This document shows positions 438-9,167 of a stretch of DNA of 20,972 nt, piece by piece. Below the pieces are notes generated by a model. That model worked only from the letters and a program-made list of their open reading frames with translations. It was not told where the DNA came from and searched no databases. Within the stretch, counting starts at the first letter, position 1. Every line of letters starts with the position of its first letter. Made by a program: the position numbers and the translations under genes. Source of the stretch: a virus; the IMG/VR virus record IMGVR_UViG_3300042887_001435, positions 1 through 20,972 of that record. The stretch is one strand, 5' to 3'.

Positions 438-891
438 AATTTGGCGCGATGTCGTCGGATTTGAAGATGCTTACCAAGTTAGCAATATAGGCCGCGTCAG
501 GTCTAAATCGCGGGTGTTGAAGCCGGCTCGCATAACTGGCGGGTATTTGGCTGTATCATTAGGCTACAACAAACAGCGAACTATTCATCGGCTTGTAGCA
601 GCGGCGTTCTTTGGGCCTAGCACTCAAATGGTGCTGCATAAAGATGGCGACCGCCAGAACAATGTCGTTGAAAATCTCTACCATGGCGATTATTTTGACA
701 ACGCCGCCGACGCTATACGTCATGGAACGCAAGTGAGAGGCGAGCGTCAGCACGCGGCTAAACTTACTGAAGATATTGTTCGCTTCATACGCGCTTCGCC
801 GGAGTCCGGAGCGGCGCTAGCGCGTCAACTGAATGTCACTACAGCCTGCATAGGTCTGATCCGTCAGCGAAAGAACTGGAAACATGTCTGA
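430..891 (+). CDS. HNH homing-type endonuclease with NUMOD4 motif
   Basis: This 153-residue protein begins with a NUMOD4-like segment (EIWRDVVGFEDAYQVSNIGR, residues 3-22). An HNH core follows, with IHRLVAAAF around His53 and LHKDGDRQNNVVENL at residues 69-83. The C-terminal part (KLTEDIVRFIRAS through NWKHV, residues 111-153) resembles the helix-turn-helix DNA-binding tail common in these enzymes. Such proteins cut DNA site-specifically and spread as free-standing homing endonucleases. The start at 430 follows a GGAAGGGGGAAG ribosome site; an upstream in-frame ATG at 391 lies inside the previous gene. The 3' end overlaps the DNA polymerase start by 8 bases, so it sits inside the replication operon without interrupting a gene. 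Confidence 0.9.
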   Translation: MTEIWRDVVGFEDAYQVSNIGRVRSKSRVLKPARITGGYLAVSLGYNKQRTIHRLVAAAFFGPSTQMVLHKDGDRQNNVVENLYHGDYFDNAADAIRHGTQVRGERQHAAKLTEDIVRFIRASPESGAALARQLNVTTACIGLIRQRKNWKHV

Positions 892-2815
892 CATACTGTG
901 GCTTGACTACGAAAGCCGAAGCGAATGTGGATTGCCAGAAAGAGGTGCGTATAACTACGCCGAACACCCTACTACCAGTATGTTGTGCGCGGCGTATGCG
1001 TTCAACGACGAGGGCGCTCAGTTATGGTGGCATTACGAACCTATGCCGCAGCGCATACGGGATCATTTTGAAGCCAAGAAACAGATCAGATGCCACAACG
1101 AGGAATTTGACCGGCTTTTGACTTGGTTTGTGGTGTGCCCTAAATACGACGCGCCCTTACCGCCGCTTGAGTCTTGGTATTGCACGGCGGCGCAAGCGCG
1201 CGCTAATTGCGCGCCAGGATCGTTGGAAGACGTAGGGCGATTTGCCGGCACAAACATGCGCAAGGATCATCGGGGCGCGGCGCTGGTAAGAGCGTGCTGC
1301 ATCCCGCCGTATAAAGATGACTTATTGCCAGAGTTGGGTGAGTATGCGCTTCAAGACGTTAGAACAATGCGCGCCGTTAGTCAAACTTTAAGAGAGCTAA
1401 CCCCCGAGGAATTGGAGGATTATCATGTTAATGCCCGCATCAATCTTCGTGGCGTTCTTGTCGATCGGCGTCTATGCCGCGCGGCGGTCAAGTATGCGGC
1501 TGACGAACTTCAAGAGATCGAAGCTACGGTTAAGACCGTCACTAACGGTGAAATTATCTCAGTCCGTTCGCCCAAAATGCGGCTCTGGGTTCAAGAACGA
1601 CTCGGACCAGAAGCGCGTAAACTTATGGAACGTGACGACAAATTCTCCATAGACAAAACTGTTCGTGCTAACCTACTGGCTATAGACGACCCTGAAGAGG
1701 TGCCCCCCGATGTCAGAGAAGTCATACAATGCGCCGATGACCTTTGGGCGAGCAGTGTTGCTAAATTTAATCGCCTTGATAACCTTGCTTGTGCTGATGG
1801 TCGTGTTCGAGGCGCTTTTGTCTTTGCCGGCGGATCAGCCACAGGACGGGCTTCCTCGTATGGTGCGCAAGTCCACAACTTTACACGTAAGTGCGCCGAC
1901 GACCCGGAAGCCGTGCGACATGCAATGGTTCGCGGCCATGCCATCGTGCCTCATTACGGAGCCCGTGTCACCGACGTTCTGCGTGGGATGCTACGGCCCG
2001 CCCTGATACCTGAAAAGGGCAAGCAGTTCGTCGTCGCTGACTGGAGCGCCATCGAAGGCCGCGTAAATCCGTGGTTGTCCGGCAGAGGTGAGGATAAGTT
2101 ACAGGCATTCCGTAATCGGCTTGACCCTTACATTGTCAACGCCGCCGCTACGTTTCGCGTGCCGTATGAGAGTGTCGATAAGTCGCAGCGTCAGGTCGGC
2201 AAGGTGCAGGAGCTGGCGTGCGGTTTTGGTGGTGGTATCGGCGCGTTCGCCGCAATGGGCCGCGTCTATGGGTTGAGCCTTCCTGAAGAAGAGGCACGAC
2301 GTATGGTGGACGCATGGCGTCGCGCTAACCCGTGGTCCGTTCCGTTCTGGTCTGATCTTGAAATTGCTTACATTCGTGCGCTGCGCAATCCGGGTAAAGT
2401 GTTCGAGGCAGGTCGAATAAAATACTTGGCCGACAAACAGCACCTTTGGTATGCTCTGCCTTCTGGCCGTGTGCTTTGCTATCCTAATGCGCGGTTCGAA
2501 GAAGATGGTTCGATCACCTATTCAAAGGCGTCTTGGAAGCCTGCGGCGGATGCTAAAGAGTGGCCTCGGGGTCGGCTCTGGAGAGGGTTGGCTTGCGAGA
2601 ACGTCACACAAGCGACCGCCCATGATCTTTTACGTGAGGCTCTTCGCCGTCTGCCTGACGTTGTGTTGCATGTTCACGATGAGATTGTGCTGGAGTCTGA
2701 TCGGCCCGAAGAGGCGAAGGCGCTCCTAGAAGAAGTTATGACGACGCCGCCCGCATGGGCTGAAGGTTTACCGTTAGACGTGGAGGCGGCCATCATGGGC
2801 CGTTATGGCAAATGA
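884..2815 (+). CDS. DNA polymerase I-like (family A) with 3'-5' exonuclease domain
   Basis: This 643-residue phage replicative polymerase is of the family A (Pol I/T7-type) class. The N-terminal proofreading exonuclease shows all three motifs: LDYES (Asp8, Glu10), HNEEFD (residues 71-76) and YALQD (154-158). The polymerase domain has a TGRASS segment near 320-325, motif A VADWSAIEGR (384-393, catalytic Asp386), motif B RQVGKVQELACGFGGG (436-451) and motif C HVHDE (596-600, Asp599). There is no N-terminal 5'-3' exonuclease domain, as in phage enzymes. It overlaps the HNH gene by 8 bases and the primase-helicase start by 4 (ATGA), indicating one translationally coupled replication operon. All expected catalytic residues are present, so it should be active. 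Confidence 0.95.
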   Translation: MSDILWLDYESRSECGLPERGAYNYAEHPTTSMLCAAYAFNDEGAQLWWHYEPMPQRIRDHFEAKKQIRCHNEEFDRLLTWFVVCPKYDAPLPPLESWYCTAAQARANCAPGSLEDVGRFAGTNMRKDHRGAALVRACCIPPYKDDLLPELGEYALQDVRTMRAVSQTLRELTPEELEDYHVNARINLRGVLVDRRLCRAAVKYAADELQEIEATVKTVTNGEIISVRSPKMRLWVQERLGPEARKLMERDDKFSIDKTVRANLLAIDDPEEVPPDVREVIQCADDLWASSVAKFNRLDNLACADGRVRGAFVFAGGSATGRASSYGAQVHNFTRKCADDPEAVRHAMVRGHAIVPHYGARVTDVLRGMLRPALIPEKGKQFVVADWSAIEGRVNPWLSGRGEDKLQAFRNRLDPYIVNAAATFRVPYESVDKSQRQVGKVQELACGFGGGIGAFAAMGRVYGLSLPEEEARRMVDAWRRANPWSVPFWSDLEIAYIRALRNPGKVFEAGRIKYLADKQHLWYALPSGRVLCYPNARFEEDGSITYSKASWKPAADAKEWPRGRLWRGLACENVTQATAHDLLREALRRLPDVVLHVHDEIVLESDRPEEAKALLEEVMTTPPAWAEGLPLDVEAAIMGRYGK

Positions 2816-5109
2816 ATTTGTTTGATTACTTTACGGCGCTTGCGCCAGCCGGCGAGACGGCGCTGATCGTTAAACAGATCGACACAGGCCGTCTGCACAA
2901 AGACGGCTCGCCTAAATACACTTGGCCGGCGTATCTGCCGAAGCACAAGCGCAAGGAAGGCGAGAGCTGGTTTCTTAACACCGGCTCGTTTATCATGGAT
3001 CGGATGCGCGACAAGCCGTCCGCTTCTGTGGCGAACTGCACGCATGTTCTGTTTATGATGTTGGATGACATTGGCACGAAGTCAGAAGTCCCGCCGTTGC
3101 AGCCGACCGCCATCGTCGAGACGAGCCCCGGCAACTATCAATATTGGTATGCCTACTCTGAGCAGCCGACTGTGGAGGAACATTGTGCAGCTCTCACCGC
3201 TATTGCTGAAGCTGGCTATACCGATCCTGGTGCTACTAACGCCGTGCGTAACTGTCGCCTGCCAGGCTCGGTTAATGTCAAGCCGGGACGCGATGCGTTC
3301 GTCTGCCGACAAGTAGAGTTTCACCCGGAGCGTGAGTTTACGTTAGCTGAAATATGCGACGCGCTTGGTGTTACGCCGGCGGAAGCCGGCACAGCAAGGG
3401 CTATTACGTTTCGCGTAAAAGACACCGGCAACGACACGGTGCTGGCATGGCTAAATGAAAACGGTCTTGTTACGTCTGGCGTAAACGCAGAGGGTTGGTG
3501 CGGCGTTGTCTGCCCGAATCATGAAGGTCATACAGATGGACAGATTGAGGCGCGATATAAGCCGCAGGATCGTTCATTCTGTTGCTATCACGCTCATTGC
3601 GACGGTCTTGATAGCAAGTTCTTTTGCGATTGGGTATCGGAACAAGGTGGGCCGCGCACCATCCCCGGCTTGCGAGACGATCTCATTGCCGACTACACCA
3701 GCAAGATTAGCGAACTAAAGCCGACAAAAGAATACCCTGACGACGCGGCGGCGCGGATTGCCGAAGTCGAGCGCAAGCAGGCTGGGCGCGAAGATCGCGC
3801 CGGCTGGCATGAACGCTTCGCCTATATCGTCGATGATGACGCTTACTTTGATAAAAAGACATGCAGCGAGATCAGCCGCAAAGCCTTCAATGCTGTGTTC
3901 CGGCACATTGAATGCAAATCAACCGGCGAAAAACCGCGCCGTATTGAAGCGTCTATCTGGTATGACGAAAACCGCGAAGCGATGGGCGGCTATGCGCTTA
4001 AGGGCCTAACCTACGCCGCTGGCGAAGACTGGATGGTTCATAAAGACGGCCTTGTCTATGGCAACGTCTGGCGCGACGCCAGGCCGGAGGTCAAAGAGGC
4101 TGGCGATCCGCAGATCTGGCTCGATCATTGCCGGCGGCTTGTGCCGGACGCTGCGGAGTTGGAGCATATCTGGAATGTAATGGCGTTCAAGCTCCAGCAC
4201 GCGAACGTCAAGATCAACCACGCTATCCTGCATGGCGGCAAGGGCGGCTGCGGTAAGGATACGATGTGGGCTCCTTTCATCTGGTCGGTCTGCGGGCCGC
4301 ACGAGAAGAACAAGGGGCTGATCGACAACGAGAGCCTGTCAAGCCAGTGGGGTTATCAGCTTGAGGCTGAGATCGTCGTCCTTAACGAACTAAAAGAGCC
4401 AGAGGCGAAGGATCGTCGCGCGCTGGCGAACAAGCTCAAGCCGATTATTGCCGCCCCGCCGGAGATGCTGACGATTAACCGCAAGGGCTTGCACCCCTAC
4501 AAGATGGTCAATCGTCTGTTCATGCTGGCGTTCACGAACGAGGACATGCCGATCACGCTGGACAGTGACGACCGGCGCTGGTTTTGCGTCTGGTCTGAGA
4601 GCGCCAAGATGACGCCGGAGGAAGCCAAGCGGATCTGGGGCTGGTATAACGCCGGCGGCTTCGAGGCGGTCGCGGGTTGGCTGCGGGCGCGGGATGTGTC
4701 GCGGTTCAGCCCCCAGGGCATACCGCCGATGACCGACTACAAGCAGAAGCTGATCTATGTCGGCATGAGCAACGCCGAAGGTTATGTTTATCACGAGATC
4801 GAAGCGGGCCATGCGCCGTTCAACGTCGATGTTATCGCCGGGCCTTGGCACAAGATAATCAAAGATATGAACGACGCGCATAATAATAACAGTTCGTTCA
4901 AAGTTGTGCAGCCGGCGCTATTTCACGCACTGAAAGAAGCCGGGTGGATCGACAAGGGGCTATGCTATTCAGCGGACTACCGTTCTAAAAAGCATTGCTT
5001 TGTTCGCCCGGCCCTGAAAGACTGGTCACGGTCGGACGTGCGGCGTGAGCTGGCGCGGATCACGGGTGAGGGAAGGGACACGGATAATGTCGTCTCACTT
5101 AAAAATTAA
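2812..5109 (+). CDS. primase-helicase: AEP/PrimPol-like domain plus SF3-type helicase
   Basis: This 765-residue fusion carries replication initiation activities. The N-terminal part looks like an archaeo-eukaryotic-type (RepB/PrimPol-like) primase: MLDDIG (residues 83-88) supplies the acidic pair and NCRLPGSVNVK (147-157) matches the conserved R-PGS-N-K element. A putative zinc-binding segment follows (Cys230, Cys234, His237, His240, then Cys257/258, His260, His262, Cys263). The C-terminal part is an SF3/D5-like helicase of the DUF5906 type, with Walker A GGKGGCGKDT (475-484), Walker B-like EIVVLNE (520-526) and FTNEDMP (574-580) as a likely sensor region. It probably primes and unwinds for the adjacent polymerase. 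The start overlaps the polymerase stop (ATGA). The primase assignment rests on short motifs; the helicase assignment is firmer. Confidence 0.88.
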   Translation: MNLFDYFTALAPAGETALIVKQIDTGRLHKDGSPKYTWPAYLPKHKRKEGESWFLNTGSFIMDRMRDKPSASVANCTHVLFMMLDDIGTKSEVPPLQPTAIVETSPGNYQYWYAYSEQPTVEEHCAALTAIAEAGYTDPGATNAVRNCRLPGSVNVKPGRDAFVCRQVEFHPEREFTLAEICDALGVTPAEAGTARAITFRVKDTGNDTVLAWLNENGLVTSGVNAEGWCGVVCPNHEGHTDGQIEARYKPQDRSFCCYHAHCDGLDSKFFCDWVSEQGGPRTIPGLRDDLIADYTSKISELKPTKEYPDDAAARIAEVERKQAGREDRAGWHERFAYIVDDDAYFDKKTCSEISRKAFNAVFRHIECKSTGEKPRRIEASIWYDENREAMGGYALKGLTYAAGEDWMVHKDGLVYGNVWRDARPEVKEAGDPQIWLDHCRRLVPDAAELEHIWNVMAFKLQHANVKINHAILHGGKGGCGKDTMWAPFIWSVCGPHEKNKGLIDNESLSSQWGYQLEAEIVVLNELKEPEAKDRRALANKLKPIIAAPPEMLTINRKGLHPYKMVNRLFMLAFTNEDMPITLDSDDRRWFCVWSESAKMTPEEAKRIWGWYNAGGFEAVAGWLRARDVSRFSPQGIPPMTDYKQKLIYVGMSNAEGYVYHEIEAGHAPFNVDVIAGPWHKIIKDMNDAHNNNSSFKVVQPALFHALKEAGWIDKGLCYSADYRSKKHCFVRPALKDWSRSDVRRELARITGEGRDTDNVVSLKN

Positions 5110-5281: not shown

Positions 5282-5396
5282 TCTGGTAATCTGCTACGGC
5301 TTCATTTTTCTGTATTGGCATGAGTATAGTGGACAGCGACGCCTGCTGCGCGGGCAGCTAGCGCCTGTTCTTTTGTCTCGAAATAGCCAAGGCTGA
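5262..5396 (+). CDS. possible small membrane protein overlapping a convergent gene
   Basis: This frame encodes 44 residues with a hydrophobic segment at about 4-20 (LVRDLVICYGFIFLYW) followed by a basic stretch. A strong GGAGGG ribosome site sits 8 bases before the ATG, inside the preceding gene, which it overlaps by 20 bases. The last 95 bases lie antisense to the 3' end of the HNH gene at 5302-5760. The C-terminal part may therefore be a new tail created when the HNH gene arrived. The membrane segment lies before most of the overlap. The ribosome site and membrane segment support it; no family is recognised. Confidence 0.45.
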   Translation: MVSLVRDLVICYGFIFLYWHEYSGQRRLLRGQLAPVLLSRNSQG

Positions 5397-5760
5397 TAGC
5401 TTTACGTTTTTTGTAAACGTATGCGTTCCATTTTTGGCTGCGTTTGTGAAAATAAACGCCCAACGGTTTACCGCGATTTTGGCAATTTTCGCTGTTTGTC
5501 GCCAATCTAAGATTTTCTAGCCGATTATCTGATTTGTCGCGGTTTATGTGGTCTATTTGCGGTTCGGGCCACACGCCGTAATGCATAGCCCATATAATAC
5601 AATGCGCCGGATAACTGCGCCGGTCTGCATAAACGCTTGAATAACCCTTTTTTGGCGTGCCAGTTAATTTTCCCGCGCGTTTGCCTATGCGCCGCGTCAA
5701 TTGTCCAGTTTGCGCGTCGTAAGAAAATAGCTCGTTGAGTCGGTCTGATGTCGGTCGCAT
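5302..5760 (-). CDS. HNH endonuclease with AP2-type DNA-binding domain
   Basis: This 152-residue protein has an HNH core around YPAHCIIWAMHYG (His53) and QIDHINRDKSDNRLENLRL (residues 68-86), followed by a C-terminal AP2/integrase-like DNA-binding module (GVYFHKRSQKWNAYVY onward, about 101-135). This is the classic HNH-AP2 homing endonuclease layout and is unrelated in flanking domains to the NUMOD4-type HNH at 430-891. It sits at the end of the leftward gene run, convergent with the rightward replication operon. It lacks a visible Shine-Dalgarno site and instead has a promoter-like sequence ending 5 bases before its ATG. It is probably a selfish insertion with its own transcription. Confidence 0.9.
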   Translation of the reverse strand: MRPTSDRLNELFSYDAQTGQLTRRIGKRAGKLTGTPKKGYSSVYADRRSYPAHCIIWAMHYGVWPEPQIDHINRDKSDNRLENLRLATNSENCQNRGKPLGVYFHKRSQKWNAYVYKKRKAISLGYFETKEQALAARAAGVAVHYTHANTEK

Positions 5761-5765
5761 AGGTT

Positions 5766-5794
5766 CTTATACTATGCGGGGATAGGATTGTCTA
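5766..5794 (-). promoter_or_regulatory. sigma70-like promoter for the HNH-AP2 gene, possibly leaderless
   Basis: On the minus strand, TAGACA (5789-5794) and TATAAG (5766-5771) are separated by exactly 17 bases, each one mismatch from the -35 and -10 consensus. The -10 box ends 5 bases before the HNH ATG at 5760, so transcription would begin at or next to the start codon. No ribosome site is present, which fits a leaderless message. The -35 box overlaps the stop codon of the upstream gene. Confidence 0.55.
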
Positions 5795-6022
5795 TTCTTT
5801 TGGGCGTCGATGCATAGCGGCCAAGATACGGACTCTTCGGCTTTCGTCCTGAACCTCGTCTAGCGCCCATTCGAGCGCGTTCCGTAGACGGGTGCTTTCG
5901 TCGACAGCCGCCGCAATAGTCCATTGGGCGCGCTGGCGAGCCTCCTGATAGCCTTTCAGATACGCCTCAGAGATTTCCTGCTGGAGCGCCTTTAGACGCT
6001 GCTCGAACTCCGCTTCGGTCAT
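5792..6022 (-). CDS. small helical hypothetical protein
   Basis: This 76-residue protein is rich in Glu, Gln, Arg and Ala (MTEAEFEQRLKALQQEISEA at the start) with heptad-like spacing, so it is probably one or two long helices or a coiled coil. It follows a hairpin terminator by a few bases and has an AGGTG ribosome site about 6 bases before the ATG. It is the last small gene of the leftward run before the HNH gene. I recognise no family. Confidence 0.6.
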   Translation of the reverse strand: MTEAEFEQRLKALQQEISEAYLKGYQEARQRAQWTIAAAVDESTRLRNALEWALDEVQDESRRVRILAAMHRRPKE

Positions 6023-6032
6023 GGCAGCACCT

Positions 6033-6056
6033 AAAAAGAAGCCGGCTTGCGCCGGC
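6033..6056 (-). terminator. Rho-independent terminator in the leftward gene run
   Basis: Reading leftward, a perfect 6-bp stem GCCGGC with a GCAA loop (6041-6056) is followed directly by TTCTTTTT (6033-6040). It lies between the genes ending at 6085 and starting at 6022. It would end or attenuate most leftward transcripts before the last small gene. Confidence 0.7.
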
Positions 6057-6084
6057 CAGTCACCATAGGGAGGAAAACGGGCGT

Positions 6085-6285
6085 CTAGCAGACGCCATGG
6101 CCCATATACATCAGATCAAGCCGCCGCACAATCTCCTGTTCGGTTAGCACCGGACTAGGTTCCGCCATGGGTCGCACGGCCCGCCAAAACGCCCACAGGG
6201 GCGGGTTCACCTCATAGACCGGCTCGTCGCGTGGCAGGTCTGGTATCACGGCCTGTATGGCCTCGTATTGCTCCTCGAACGTCAT
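6085..6285 (-). CDS. hypothetical protein, 66 residues
   Basis: This is a small acidic protein with a Pro/Trp-rich middle (NPPLWAFWRAVRP, residues 27-39) and a helical C-terminal part (VLTEQEIVRRLDLMYMG). Its ATG overlaps the stop of the 22-residue membrane peptide upstream (ATGA), and GGGG lies about 8 bases before the start. A terminator hairpin follows. I recognise no family. Confidence 0.6.
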   Translation of the reverse strand: MTFEEQYEAIQAVIPDLPRDEPVYEVNPPLWAFWRAVRPMAEPSPVLTEQEIVRRLDLMYMGHGVC

Positions 6286-6350
6286 TTTAGCCCCAACACT
6301 ATTTCGATTATTACCGCCAGTAAGATTGCCATTGCTTCACCGATTTTCAT
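6282..6350 (-). CDS. candidate 22-residue membrane peptide
   Basis: The frame reads MKIGEAMAILLAVIIEIVLG then LK and stop, almost entirely one hydrophobic helix. Two junctions support it: its start overlaps the end of the DnaA-like gene by 14 bases, and its stop overlaps the next gene's ATG by 4 (ATGA). A weak GGGATC ribosome site lies about 8 bases upstream. Without this peptide there would be a 51-base gap in an otherwise gapless run. It is too short for family recognition. Confidence 0.4.
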   Translation of the reverse strand: MKIGEAMAILLAVIIEIVLGLK

Positions 6351-6582
6351 AGCGTTTGATCCCGTGCATGATGGTCGTGTGGTCGCGGCCGCCTAGCACG
6401 TGCCCGATTAGTTGATAGGGCGCGTTCAACTCGTGCCGTGCGCGCCACATGATCTCGAACCGTGGCCAGATGACCCCTTTGCGGCGGTTGTGGCCGGTTA
6501 GGGCCTCGGTGGAGATGTTATGATTCCGGGCTGTTTCCTCTATCAGATCCTGAATTGCTTCCGTCATCTCTTGCTTTTGCAT
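6337..6582 (-). CDS. stand-alone DnaA domain IV-like DNA-binding protein
   Basis: This 81-residue protein matches the C-terminal DnaA-box-binding domain of bacterial DnaA and nothing else of it. HNISTEALTGHNRRKGVIWP (residues 21-40) corresponds to the first domain IV helices and their basic loop. LIGHVLGGRDHTTIMHG (58-74) is the DnaA signature, with the GRDHTT residues that read the box. There is no AAA+ ATPase or domain I. It should bind TTATNCACA-type sites without ATP-dependent assembly. The start at 6582 follows a GCGAGG ribosome site and overlaps the upstream gene by 65 bases; an alternative ATG at 6612 lacks one. DnaA-box-like sites occur before the first three genes of this gene run. 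It could act as a repressor, origin binder or competitor of host DnaA. Confidence 0.88.
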   Translation of the reverse strand: MQKQEMTEAIQDLIEETARNHNISTEALTGHNRRKGVIWPRFEIMWRARHELNAPYQLIGHVLGGRDHTTIMHGIKRYENR

Positions 6583-6763
6583 GTTTGCCTCGCAGCATAA
6601 AATTGAGCGCATGGGCGGCGGTCATAACAGCCCGTTCGTCGGCGTATGGCGCGTTGATCCTCATTATGAGGGAGCCATCGCGCCTGTGCAGCGATAGCCC
6701 CTCCCCGGTGCGCCAGCGGGTTGTGACCCCGCCGGGTTCGGTGTCAAGGTCAAGCCGTAGCAT
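6518..6763 (-). CDS. hypothetical protein, 81 residues
   Basis: This protein has a beta-rich N-terminal half (MLRLDLDTEPGGVTTRWRTG then LSLHRRDGSLIMRINAP), a helical segment (DERAVMTAAHALNFMLRG) and a Ser/Gly/Asp-rich disordered tail. The tail lies in the 65-base overlap with the DnaA-like gene. A GCGGGG ribosome site precedes the ATG by about 3-4 bases, and the start overlaps the upstream small gene by 14 bases. I recognise no family. Confidence 0.6.
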   Translation of the reverse strand: MLRLDLDTEPGGVTTRWRTGEGLSLHRRDGSLIMRINAPYADERAVMTAAHALNFMLRGKHAKARDDGSNSGSDRGNSPES

Positions 6764-6902
6764 GACCCCGCGCCTCCAGCTCGTTCTGGATGATCTTTGC
6801 GCGGTAATCGTCCTGCTCTGTCTCTAGCAGGATGTTAAGCGCCTCGTCAGACAGCCAGTGTAAGAGTTGCGAGAACTCAAAATAATCCTTCATGCGGCTC
6901 AT
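6750..6902 (-). CDS. small acidic hypothetical protein, 50 residues
   Basis: The frame MSRMKDYFEFSQLLHWLSDE, continuing to GHATA, encodes an acidic helical protein. A strong GGGAGG ribosome site lies 6 bases before the ATG. The start shares one base with the stop of the upstream membrane peptide (TAATG) and the end overlaps the next start by 14 bases. Without it a 200-base hole would remain in a gapless operon. No family is recognised. Confidence 0.6.
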   Translation of the reverse strand: MSRMKDYFEFSQLLHWLSDEALNILLETEQDDYRAKIIQNELEARGHATA

Positions 6903-6997
6903 TATAGGCCTCCCAGTAGATACGTTATGAATAGGGCGAGCGCGGGGATTGCCAGCGCTGCGCCGATGGCGAAGGCGATCAGGTCACGCTTCCTCAT
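6902..6997 (-). CDS. small membrane peptide, 31 residues
   Basis: The frame begins MRKRDLIAFAIGAALAIPAL and continues as ALFITYLLGGL: three basic residues then a single hydrophobic helix, a standard inner-membrane peptide with N-in topology. Its start overlaps the upstream gene by 14 bases and its stop shares one base with the next ATG. Possible roles include host-membrane interference or superinfection exclusion, but none can be inferred from sequence. Confidence 0.5.
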   Translation of the reverse strand: MRKRDLIAFAIGAALAIPALALFITYLLGGL

Positions 6998-7253
6998 AAT
7001 CTTCCACGCACTTCTCTGCGACATGGTCGCTTGTCTCTAACTGTGCGACGATTAGGGCATAGAGCGGGTGCTGGCGGTCTAGCGGGGCGTCTAGCGTGAT
7101 GCTTTCCACTTCTATGTCGTACGGGCCGCCCCTATAGCCAACCTCCCGGTCTGGGCCTTCCCAGCCATAGCTGATCTCGGCGCTGCCGTAACAATAGACG
7201 GCAAGGCCCGGCCATGGCTGCAATTCATCAAAATCATATGTGAAGGTATTCAT
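6984..7253 (-). CDS. hypothetical protein, 89 residues
   Basis: This acidic, Tyr/Trp-rich protein begins MNTFTYDFDELQPWPGLAVY and is probably beta-rich in the first two thirds (VYCYGSAEISYGWEG, YDIEVESITLDAP) with a C-terminal helix. The start at 7253 is chosen because it overlaps the upstream stop as ATGA and has GGAG about 9 bases before it; an ATG at 7268 lacks both. Similar small beta-rich proteins are common among phage early genes of unknown function. Confidence 0.65.
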   Translation of the reverse strand: MNTFTYDFDELQPWPGLAVYCYGSAEISYGWEGPDREVGYRGGPYDIEVESITLDAPLDRQHPLYALIVAQLETSDHVAEKCVEDYEEA

Positions 7254-7414
7254 TGTTCGCCACTCCAAATGGTTGTCCAGTATTGTTCAGACGCGTTCGT
7301 GTGCGCGTCCTGTAGCGTCTTAAACGCGAAGTCTAAGACGGGTGACCGCTCCACTGTGGAGAGGTGATCTAAAAGCGCCTCTAGCGCCTGTATCTCTATA
7401 TCAATGTTCAACAT
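7250..7414 (-). CDS. hypothetical helical protein, 54 residues
   Basis: The protein MLNIDIEIQALEALLDHLST, ending TIWSGEQ, is mainly helical. The start at 7414 has a GGGGAGA ribosome site about 8 bases upstream and lies 14 bases inside the preceding gene; a farther ATG at 7447 is inside that gene without a ribosome site. It ends with a 4-base overlap into the next gene. No family is recognised. Confidence 0.6.
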   Translation of the reverse strand: MLNIDIEIQALEALLDHLSTVERSPVLDFAFKTLQDAHTNASEQYWTTIWSGEQ

Positions 7415-7565
7415 CGTGCGTCTCCCCGTATGATTGCAGCATTTCAAGCCGCGTGATTTGCTGGCGTATGCCGGCTGCTAAGCCGGCGTCGCCTTCCCAT
7501 TCCGCCTCTATTAGCGCGTCGCGCAAATGTTTAAGCGCCTGCCAGATTGGTCGGGGCTCGTTCAT
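7401..7565 (-). CDS. small hypothetical protein, 54 residues
   Basis: The frame begins MNEPRPIWQALKHLRDALIE and ends THDVEH; it is a charged, two-helix-like protein. The ATG overlaps the stop of the upstream gene (ATGA) and its 3' end overlaps the next start by 14 bases, so it fills an otherwise empty stretch of the operon. No family is recognised. Confidence 0.55.
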   Translation of the reverse strand: MNEPRPIWQALKHLRDALIEAEWEGDAGLAAGIRQQITRLEMLQSYGETHDVEH

Positions 7566-8026
7566 AACGTAGCCCTCAAGAATTGACGCGCGATCATCTC
7601 CGCGTTGCCCAGCGACGCTATGGACGCCGCTAGAGACAGCGACAAGCCAAACTTGGCTAGGAACGTCGTCAGCTCGTCAGGCGGGACTTTGGCGATGATC
7701 CGCGCGGCGTGCTCTAGTTTAGCTTTCGGAACGCGCTTGCGCGGAACGCTGGCGACAGGTTCGGCTTTGAGTTGCGCCGGCCACCGATACACGCCGTTTG
7801 TTTTGGTTGCTTCGGCCAGAATAATCGGGCGCAACTTTTCGTTATACATCGCCAGCCCGGCGCGACGGCGCTTTGTCTCTTTATCGGGTTGCGGACTGCG
7901 CGCCGTTCCCGCCCGGCCAGTCAGGCTATGCGATAGCGCGTTAGCTTCCCACGCGACCAGATGGCCGGCATGATGAACGCCGGGGTTGCGCCATTGGGCG
8001 TCCATTGCTTCTTTAATGCTTGTCAT
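7562..8026 (-). CDS. hypothetical protein, 154 residues
   Basis: This is the largest non-HNH protein of the leftward run. It has a His/Trp-rich N-terminus (MDAQWRNPGVHHAGHLVAWE), a basic middle (residues 46-56, KPDKETKRRR-like) and a second basic patch (PRKRVPKAKLEHAARII), then a predicted helical C-terminus. The basic patches hint at nucleic acid binding, but no known fold is recognised. A GGAG site lies 8 bases before the ATG, just after a hairpin plus DnaA-box-like leader. It ends in ATGA with the next gene. Confidence 0.65.
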   Translation of the reverse strand: MTSIKEAMDAQWRNPGVHHAGHLVAWEANALSHSLTGRAGTARSPQPDKETKRRRAGLAMYNEKLRPIILAEATKTNGVYRWPAQLKAEPVASVPRKRVPKAKLEHAARIIAKVPPDELTTFLAKFGLSLSLAASIASLGNAEMIARQFLRATL

Positions 8027-8040
8027 TGTTTAGGCTCCTA

Positions 8041-8083
8041 TGTTGATATGTTACAAAATAGGCGACGCCGTGAAGCGCCGCCT
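8041..8083 (-). terminator. hairpin terminator and repeated leader module (copy 1)
   Basis: Reading leftward, a 10-bp stem with a TCAC loop (8060-8083, two G-T wobbles) is followed by ATTTTG, a short U-tract. Immediately after comes TAACAT and ATATCAACA (8041-8049), a two-mismatch DnaA-box-like site. The hairpin follows the stop of the gene at 8088-8327. The layout matches that at 8346-8390. Confidence 0.55.
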
Positions 8084-8087
8084 GTGA

Positions 8088-8327
8088 TTAGTCTGCCTTT
8101 ATATGCTTTGCGATTTCATGCCAGTTAACATCGGCAAGGAACGCCATTGCGTAGTCTAGCGCCAGCCCGTTGGCGGTTTCTTCCATAAGGTTCTCAGCGT
8201 ATTCCCTCAACATCGCCGGTACGTCGTCGCAATGGTCGAACAATTCATCGGTCGCACCATCGAACATTTCCAGATTAACCCGCCACGTCGCGTAGTTTGT
8301 CCAGCCATTGTAGGTATTGTCAGTCAT
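8088..8327 (-). CDS. small phage protein with NGWTNYATW motif (DUF7249-like)
   Basis: This 79-residue acidic protein begins MTDNTYNGWTNYATWRVNLE; the NGWTNYxTW motif at residues 7-15 marks a family often seen in phages and mobile elements, which I match from memory to DUF7249, of unknown role. The rest is helical (AMLREYAENLMEETANGLAL). A GAGGAG ribosome site lies 7 bases before the ATG. It is flanked on both sides by hairpin plus DnaA-box-like leader modules, so it may be transcribed as its own unit. Confidence 0.7.
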   Translation of the reverse strand: MTDNTYNGWTNYATWRVNLEMFDGATDELFDHCDDVPAMLREYAENLMEETANGLALDYAMAFLADVNWHEIAKHIKAD

Positions 8328-8345
8328 TGTCGTCTCCTCTTACAG

Positions 8346-8390
8346 TGTGGATATGTTACGATAAAGGCCGCGCTCCTGCAAGCGTCGCCT
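8346..8390 (-). promoter_or_regulatory. hairpin, promoter-like and DnaA-box-like leader module (copy 2)
   Basis: Reading leftward, the arms AGGCGACGCT and AGCGCGGCCT form a stem with a 2x2 internal loop (8365-8390), followed by TTTAT. TTGCAG (8376-8381) and TAACAT (8353-8358), 17 bases apart, form a weak promoter. ATATCCACA (8346-8354) is one mismatch from the DnaA box TTATCCACA and overlaps the -10 by two bases, the same geometry as at 8598-8632. It precedes the gene starting at 8327. Confidence 0.5.
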
Positions 8391-8396
8391 GTTAGA

Positions 8397-8570
8397 TTAG
8401 GCTTGCGCGATCTTGCGCGCGAGCTGGACGATCGCCGCCCGCTCACTGTCTACTAGCATCGCGAAGGGATGCTTGCGATCATACGCGACGACGGCGCGCG
8501 CGGCTTTGATTAGGGCGTCGCGGTTGCCAGCGCGATAGGCGGTTTTCAGAGCGGTAATTTTCTTTTCCAT
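8397..8570 (-). CDS. small basic helical protein, 57 residues
   Basis: This is the first gene of the leftward run. The protein begins MEKKITALKTAYRAGNRDAL and is Lys/Arg/Ala-rich, with two or three helices. The start at 8570 has a GGGGAAA ribosome site about 7 bases upstream; an ATG at 8597 has none and falls at the edge of the DnaA box. Promoter-proximal small basic proteins in phages are often DNA- or polymerase-binding regulators, but I see no diagnostic motif. Confidence 0.6.
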   Translation of the reverse strand: MEKKITALKTAYRAGNRDALIKAARAVVAYDRKHPFAMLVDSERAAIVQLARKIAQA

Positions 8571-8597
8571 GTCGTTTCCCCTTTTGGTTAGCGTCAA

Positions 8598-8632
8598 TGT
8601 GGATAACTTAGCACAATTCGAGATTGCGTCAA
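8598..8632 (-). promoter_or_regulatory. leftward promoter overlapped by a perfect DnaA box
   Basis: Reading leftward, TTGACG (8627-8632) and TAAGTT (8605-8610) are 16 bases apart, a good sigma70-type promoter for the leftward genes. TTATCCACA (8598-8606), a perfect consensus DnaA box, overlaps the -10 by two bases and covers the initiation region. Binding of DnaA or of the phage DnaA-like protein would be expected to block initiation here. Confidence 0.6.
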
Positions 8633-8813
8633 GAGATTTTTGACGGGGCGGGAAAATGAATAGCGTTTAGCGCCGGTTTATGCGGTCGTTAGGCGGGAGA
8701 AAGTCTATTGAGAACAAGGCGCTTAGGCGATATATGCTAAAGTAAAGATAACAACCTATGAAAATGTTAAGTTGTATACATACATATTTATCTGCAACCG
8801 ATTTTTTTTGGCT

Positions 8814-9003
8814 GTATAAACTGCATAAACCGCCTAAAACCGCCTCGCCCCACGCCCGCGCAGTCATCACAGGGCGACCGGGAATTTCCCTGCGCCAATG
8901 TTGTCCACATAGCATAAACTGCATAAACTGCATAAACTGCATAAAGCCTGGAGGCTCAACACGACTTGCTGGCGACTTGCATAAACTGCATAAAGCATAA
9001 GCA
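8814..9003. repeat. 9-bp tandem repeats (iteron-like; origin or control region candidate)
   Basis: Three clusters of a 9-base unit, consensus GCATAAACT, lie on the plus strand. One is at 8814-8840 (GTATAAACT, GCATAAACC, GCCTAAAAC). Another is at 8912-8947 (three perfect copies then GCATAAAGC). The last is at 8979-9003 (one perfect copy, GCATAAAGC and a partial GCATAAGCA). The pair GCATAAACTGCATAAAGC occurs identically at 8930-8947 and 8979-8996. Complemented, the unit contains TTATGCAGT, which matches seven of nine positions of TTATNCACA. TTGTCCACA (8901-8909), one mismatch from a DnaA box, lies just before the second cluster. Iterons beside AT-rich DNA between divergent operons are typical of replication origins. 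Confidence 0.6.
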
Positions 9004-9072: not shown

Positions 9073-9167
9073 GTATCAGGTATGTAAACAGGGCGGGGGG
9101 CTGGGCCTTGGGATCTCCTTTAAGAAATACGTAGGCATTAAGAACAATTTTTATTTTTATTTTTTAT

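Follow-up and report, generated by a model that had tools for sequence, protein, structure and literature searches.

DnaA is the universal initiator of bacterial replication, and a phage gene that keeps only its DNA-reading part, set in an operon whose promoters carry DnaA boxes, raises the question of what such a protein reads and what it controls. The gene lies in a viral record of 20,972 bases (the window, meaning the whole stretch of DNA analysed) from a podovirus whose portal is P22-like. Its place is the far end of an operon of small genes that reads leftward (Table 1). The original prediction, made from the letters of the window, was that of a phage regulator reading DnaA boxes, either to repress its own operon or to compete with host DnaA.

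Table 1. Positions of the genes, boxes, promoter parts and hairpins discussed in the text (window coordinates, except for the last line)
Feature	Position	Strand or direction	Remarks
DNA polymerase A and RepB-type primase genes	884-5109	rightward	
Leftward operon of small genes	~5302-8597	leftward	Site of the finding
Stand-alone DnaA domain IV protein, 81 aa	6337..6582	-	Proposed operon repressor; basis: Pfam, AlphaFold2, residues
Tightly packed small genes joining element 3 to the domain IV gene	6518..7565	-	Many ends overlap
154-aa gene behind element 3	7562..8026	-	Commonest family behind an element (19/67)
Element 3, TAACATATCAACA, before the 154-aa gene	8041..8053	-	Box ATATCAACA at 8041-8049
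Terminator-like hairpin directly upstream of element 3	8060..8083	-	10 pairs, then ATTTT
79-aa gene (DUF7249) behind element 2	8088..8327	-	
Element 2, TAACATATCCACA, before the 79-aa gene	8346..8358	-	Box ATATCCACA at 8346-8354
Hairpin directly upstream of element 2	8359..8392	-	Weaker, z -1.5
57-aa gene that opens the leftward operon, behind element 1	8397..8570	-	Orthologues behind an element in 6/67 cases
Element 1, TAAGTTATCCACA, first leftward promoter	8598..8610	-	Perfect DnaA box TTATCCACA at 8598-8606 overlaps the -10
-10 TAAGTT, first leftward promoter	8605-8610	-	Weak; last two bases overlapped by the perfect box
-35 TTGACG, first leftward promoter	8627..8632	-	16 bp from the -10
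Terminase and structural genes	from ~9168	rightward	
Related phage without the domain IV gene, repressor C annotated in the equivalent operon (L159, OR003940)	33444-33971, 36014-36325		TGACCCAGTGGGTT repeats, one directly after TTGACA

A stand-alone DnaA domain IV

The 81-residue protein, whose reading frame is preceded by a GAGG Shine-Dalgarno sequence, had been described as DnaA domain IV with GRDHTT kept and the ATPase and partner-binding domains missing, a description that the searches bear out. Residues 10-77 match positions 1-68 of the 69 in the Pfam profile PF08299 (Bac_DnaA_C) with an E-value of 6.3e-16; the Pfam search and the protein length exclude an AAA+ ATPase domain III, and the Pfam search finds no N-terminal DnaA domain. 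Structure prediction, proposed as a check on the resemblance to domain IV, gave an AlphaFold2 model with a pLDDT of 95 (from a 34-sequence alignment), whose top PDB matches are all DnaA and whose best match is 1J1V, in which domain IV of E. coli DnaA is bound to a DnaA box (TM 0.85, rmsd 0.7 A). The protein is a complete stand-alone DnaA domain IV.

E. coli DnaA reads its box from both grooves, TTA in the minor groove through Arg399 and TnCACA in the major groove through a helix that begins at H434 (PMC5742627). The phage protein, which includes LGGRDHTTIMHG, has R33 in place of Arg399 and RDHTT in place of R432-T436 in the alignment to 1J1V, and in 34 viral homologues D67, H68, T69 and T70 are invariant and R33 nearly so, the invariance of DHTT being partly built in, since the search patterns used to find the homologues contained DHTTIMHG. 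With these recognition residues kept, the protein may bind DnaA boxes. Among 84,980 bacterial and archaeal genomes only distant matches were found (33-53% identical), the best over most of the protein length having 43% identity, so that the protein was not copied recently from a host; assignment of a host through bacterial genomes was dropped because the matches were only distant. Element 3 holds the last box upstream of the gene, and the window box scan found no further box between the two (6518..7565). As the intervening genes are packed, the protein is probably made from the very promoters that it would control.

The phage group also carries a second DnaA domain IV protein, of 234 aa, encoded among rightward early genes at 1386-2090 of contig L078, which is identical to the window where the two were compared and in which this gene lies just left of window base 1. 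Its C-terminal part resembles sigma region 4 (Sigma70_r4_2, E 4e-4, below cut-off), giving a layout that resembles GafA, and proteins of this type, in two sequence types, are present in many clade members. Genes of the HNH/AP2-like homing endonuclease type stand between early genes at 5302-5760 of the window and 221-700 of L078, as judged by eye from their translations.

A conserved element in promoters and leaders

The perfect box described as overlapping the -10 of the first leftward promoter was found at its stated position on the minus strand, and so were the two boxes before the next genes. By itself the window proves little, as its 48 matches with up to two mismatches are at chance level (41.9 expected) and the two-mismatch box ATATCAACA alone would mean nothing. 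The first leftward promoter is not listed by a consensus promoter scanner, which misses it because TAAGTT matches TATAAT at only three of six positions. Comparison with the many relatives found when the protein, primase, terminase and a divergent-clade alignment served as queries argues for all three boxes, the degenerate one included. The plus strand has a further box at 8901, TTGTCCACA, which was left out for want of general conservation.

All three boxes form part of TAACnTATCCACA, a conserved element that is confined to the operon sense strand, reads GTAACATATCCACA in most copies and usually stands 7-27 nt before an operon start codon. In 31 dereplicated relatives, TATC[CA]ACA was counted 85 times in the sense and 6 times in the antisense direction, with ~2.5 and ~2.0 expected from shuffles. 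Conservation of the boxes together with the gene, on which the original prediction had been made to depend, is seen throughout: all 35 dereplicated phages that encode the protein have the element, with 2.1 copies on average and none in antisense, and 66 of the 67 related phages that lack the close protein do not have it, although, the carriers being one clade of environmental phages, this is one evolutionary association with strong internal conservation and not many independent events. The one comparator with the element, L210, is related at 93% in its terminase, and its fragment stops short of where the gene would lie. A more distant domain IV protein is carried by 20 comparators, none of which has the element, and no box enrichment was found with distant phage domain IV families, so that a general rule by which phage domain IV genes come with boxes was rejected.

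An unseeded k-mer comparison returned TATCCACA as the top 8-mer of the clade leaders (19% of 263, against 0 of 322 comparator leaders). Two collection-wide scans for DNA patterns, covering 2.9 million viral contigs, gave 24 stretches in one case and 35 in the other, all inside this phage group except for five of the former and one of the latter; these (L162/L166/L176, L163/L170 and L185) were discarded as chance matches by context, mostly inside reading frames of other phages. In 10 long loci scanned, the sites are confined to this operon. Behind the element stand 17 unrelated gene families, with start codons 7-27 nt away in nearly all cases, indicating that the element is kept although the genes downstream of it vary. 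Position 1 of the box is mostly A, C or G, not T, and in a lineage with DHTG for DHTT (L090-L092) the boxes read TATACACA or TATTCACA, varying at the free base of TTWTnCACA. The TAAC by which the element reaches 4 bp upstream beyond a DnaA box is as clade-specific as the box itself and is not explained by domain IV alone, suggesting that recognition may involve something else.

The first promoters of the carriers take two forms. In one, to which the window belongs, TTGACG/A is followed after 16-17 bp by TAAnnT merging into the box; L006, L089, L094 and L213 have TTGACG/A 17 bp from TAACnT. In the other, which is common, box 1 stands directly behind TTGAC, and a distance of 26-27 bp separates it from box 2, which is close to where transcription is expected to start. 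Box 1 lies between the -35 and the -10 and carries TATCCACA without TAAC; being upstream of the transcript, it cannot act in the mRNA and acts as DNA. Later genes are mostly preceded by a GC-rich hairpin and then T, followed by the element and a Shine-Dalgarno sequence. The hairpin shows compensatory changes in relatives (one pair is C-G in 8 and G-C in 7), and perfect hairpins occupy in them the position of the weaker one in the window. Its loop sequences, for example TTGCAA, TTTACA or TTGACA, often lie 16-18 bp before TAACnT; at least five of the six bases of TTGACA are matched at 21% of elements, compared with 3% of random positions, and at internal copies both -10 and -35 matches are weak.

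The divergent intergenic region (window 8812-8998) has at most one DnaA box, the boxes being placed in promoters and leaders instead of an origin cluster. It contains 9-bp direct repeats, CTGCATAAA, in place of which relatives have CATGACTATTTGACTAT and CATGACGATCCGACGTTT, and looks like a strain-variable origin or operator array. A role of the domain IV protein as a replication initiator was rejected, because this region has no DnaA box array and its repeats are non-DnaA and differ between relatives. In L158 (MW202483, 28215-28593) and L225, which have a more distant domain IV protein, GTTTAyGTAAAC palindromes take the place of DnaA boxes in the divergent region. Immediately ahead of the terminase operon (~9098-9136), the stretch GGGCTGGGCC..GGGATCTCCTTTAAGAAATACG is nearly identical in most relatives; could it be a late promoter or a packaging site?

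A candidate autorepressor and its alternatives

The 81-residue protein is, probably though by no means certainly, a monomeric autoregulating repressor of its own operon that uses DnaA domain IV alone at DnaA-box operators. The monomer would bind asymmetric operators with the core TATCCACA, usually inside TAACATATCCACA, placed at the first leftward promoter, both between -35 and -10 and close to the start site, and repeated before later genes of the operon, where a terminator-like hairpin and a box would insulate each gene. As its own gene lies at the far end of the operon, the accumulating protein would shut down both the operon and itself. A monomeric autorepressor fits the single asymmetric boxes, in one orientation, that overlap the -10, the spacer and the start, and the position of the sites inside the polymerase footprint, together with that of the gene at the far end of the operon it would control, favours autorepression. 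The analysis establishes the identity of the domain, the conservation of its recognition residues and of the strand-fixed sites, the exact association of sites and gene, and the site geometry; occupancy of the sites by this protein, rather than or besides host DnaA, and repression by that occupancy are what we infer from these patterns. That a phage regulator reads the DnaA boxes of its own operon, as originally predicted, is the best-supported reading, given the element in all 35 carriers and the footprint geometry, and what is a code word in replication origins seems to have been turned by these phages into a gene switch. Competition with host DnaA, the other possibility named in the prediction, gained no support, although it may occur and host DnaA may share the sites.

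Host DnaA could be the main reader of the boxes, which are near-consensus; the recognition residues are identical, and full-length DnaA represses promoters such as nrdAB and its own (PMC8203912). The operon would then sense the replication state of the host, and the phage protein would block or compete at these sites or at oriC. This is unlikely, because related phages without the protein also lack the sites, which would not be expected if host DnaA were their sole reader, because T is mostly replaced at box position 1, and because the protein, with no closer bacterial match than that given above, is no recent host copy. It is possible, if doubtful, that this DnaA mimic both represses its own operon and occupies the host oriC boxes, timing early shut-off and halting host replication, and that with the second, sigma-like domain IV protein it forms a two-regulator circuit of DnaA box readers. 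Activation of these promoters, as by the DnaA-like domain of GafA, is quite improbable. GafA consists of DnaA-like and sigma-like DNA-binding domains, the former being a separate small gene in Hyphomicrobiales (PMC9638019), the nearest phage relative of the window encodes, just to the left of it, a second domain IV protein whose end resembles sigma region 4, and several internal -35 elements are poor; however, the boxes lie within or downstream of the polymerase footprint and none upstream of the -35, and the strongest promoters, with good TTGACA/G, look activator-independent.

The strand-fixed asymmetric sites in short intergenic gaps, a hallmark of mycobacteriophage L5 repressor sites (PMC9283540), and the terminator-like hairpins that precede the internal copies could also point to a stoperator, in which leader-bound protein, with the hairpin, stops the elongating polymerase instead of blocking initiation. 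With the hairpin upstream of the box, though, the polymerase would reach the terminator first, and the boxes at the first promoter are better explained by a block of initiation, so that we give this reading a very low probability as an alternative; such an activity may rather exist alongside repression. Least plausible is that the element has been copied along with the genes as a leader or promoter sequence unrelated to the domain IV protein, its likeness to a DnaA box being coincidental. The equal clade-specificity of TAAC and box agrees with such copying, as does a different repeated leader before the genes of phage DSL-LC05, but the box 1 of two-box promoters lacks TAAC, and the variation of TATACACA and TATTCACA tracks the free base of the DnaA consensus.

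If autorepression is the true reading, the DNA-reading part of DnaA has been cut out and made a dedicated phage repressor, whose operators are identified by conservation. It would predict a function for some of the many phage Bac_DnaA_C proteins, an unstudied set whose members usually carry the label of replication initiator, and raises the question of whether early control in phages relies on sites that host DnaA also uses. The literature searched, incomplete in its coverage, contained no description of a system of this kind.

Comparison with known systems

With DnaA domain IV itself (PF08299, 1J1V) the phage protein shares the fold, the RDHTT recognition helix, the counterpart of Arg399 and a DnaA-box-like target, whereas it is free-standing, without AAA+, linker or partner-binding domain, and its sites are at phage promoters with no origin array. 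In the autoregulation of DnaA at the dnaA and nrdAB promoters (PMC8203912), a promoter DnaA box likewise serves as a repression site, although full-length, ATP/ADP-switched DnaA is needed there and the phage regulator has no nucleotide switch. GafA, whose DnaA-like domain is required for turning on the gene transfer agent genes of Rhodobacter, and its adjacent DnaA-like small gene (PMC9638019) show that a DnaA-like domain can serve as a transcription factor, in some cases as a small protein of its own; GafA, however, activates via the omega subunit of RNA polymerase, no DnaA-box operators have been described for it, its gene setting differs, and the phage protein has no sigma-like part.

A positional parallel, suggestive only, is offered by DSL-LC05 (69% portal identity), which lacks the domain IV gene and has a repressor protein C annotated in the equivalent operon; repeats of TGACCCAGTGGGTT occur in this phage, one of them directly after TTGACA. 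The mycobacteriophage L5 repressor acts as a monomer at asymmetric sites of fixed orientation in promoters and short intergenic gaps (PMC9283540). The sites described here are similarly asymmetric, oriented with transcription (85 sense, 6 antisense) and located at promoters and in short intergenic gaps, and a monomeric type of reading is predicted for them. The L5 repressor differs in having two DNA-binding domains and no DnaA homology, in contrast to the single DnaA domain IV of the phage protein, and its sites are 13-mers spread over the genome, not gathered in one operon. By these likenesses, the L5 repressor is the nearest functional analogue of the proposed repressor, and DnaA as a transcription factor and GafA are the nearest molecular ones.
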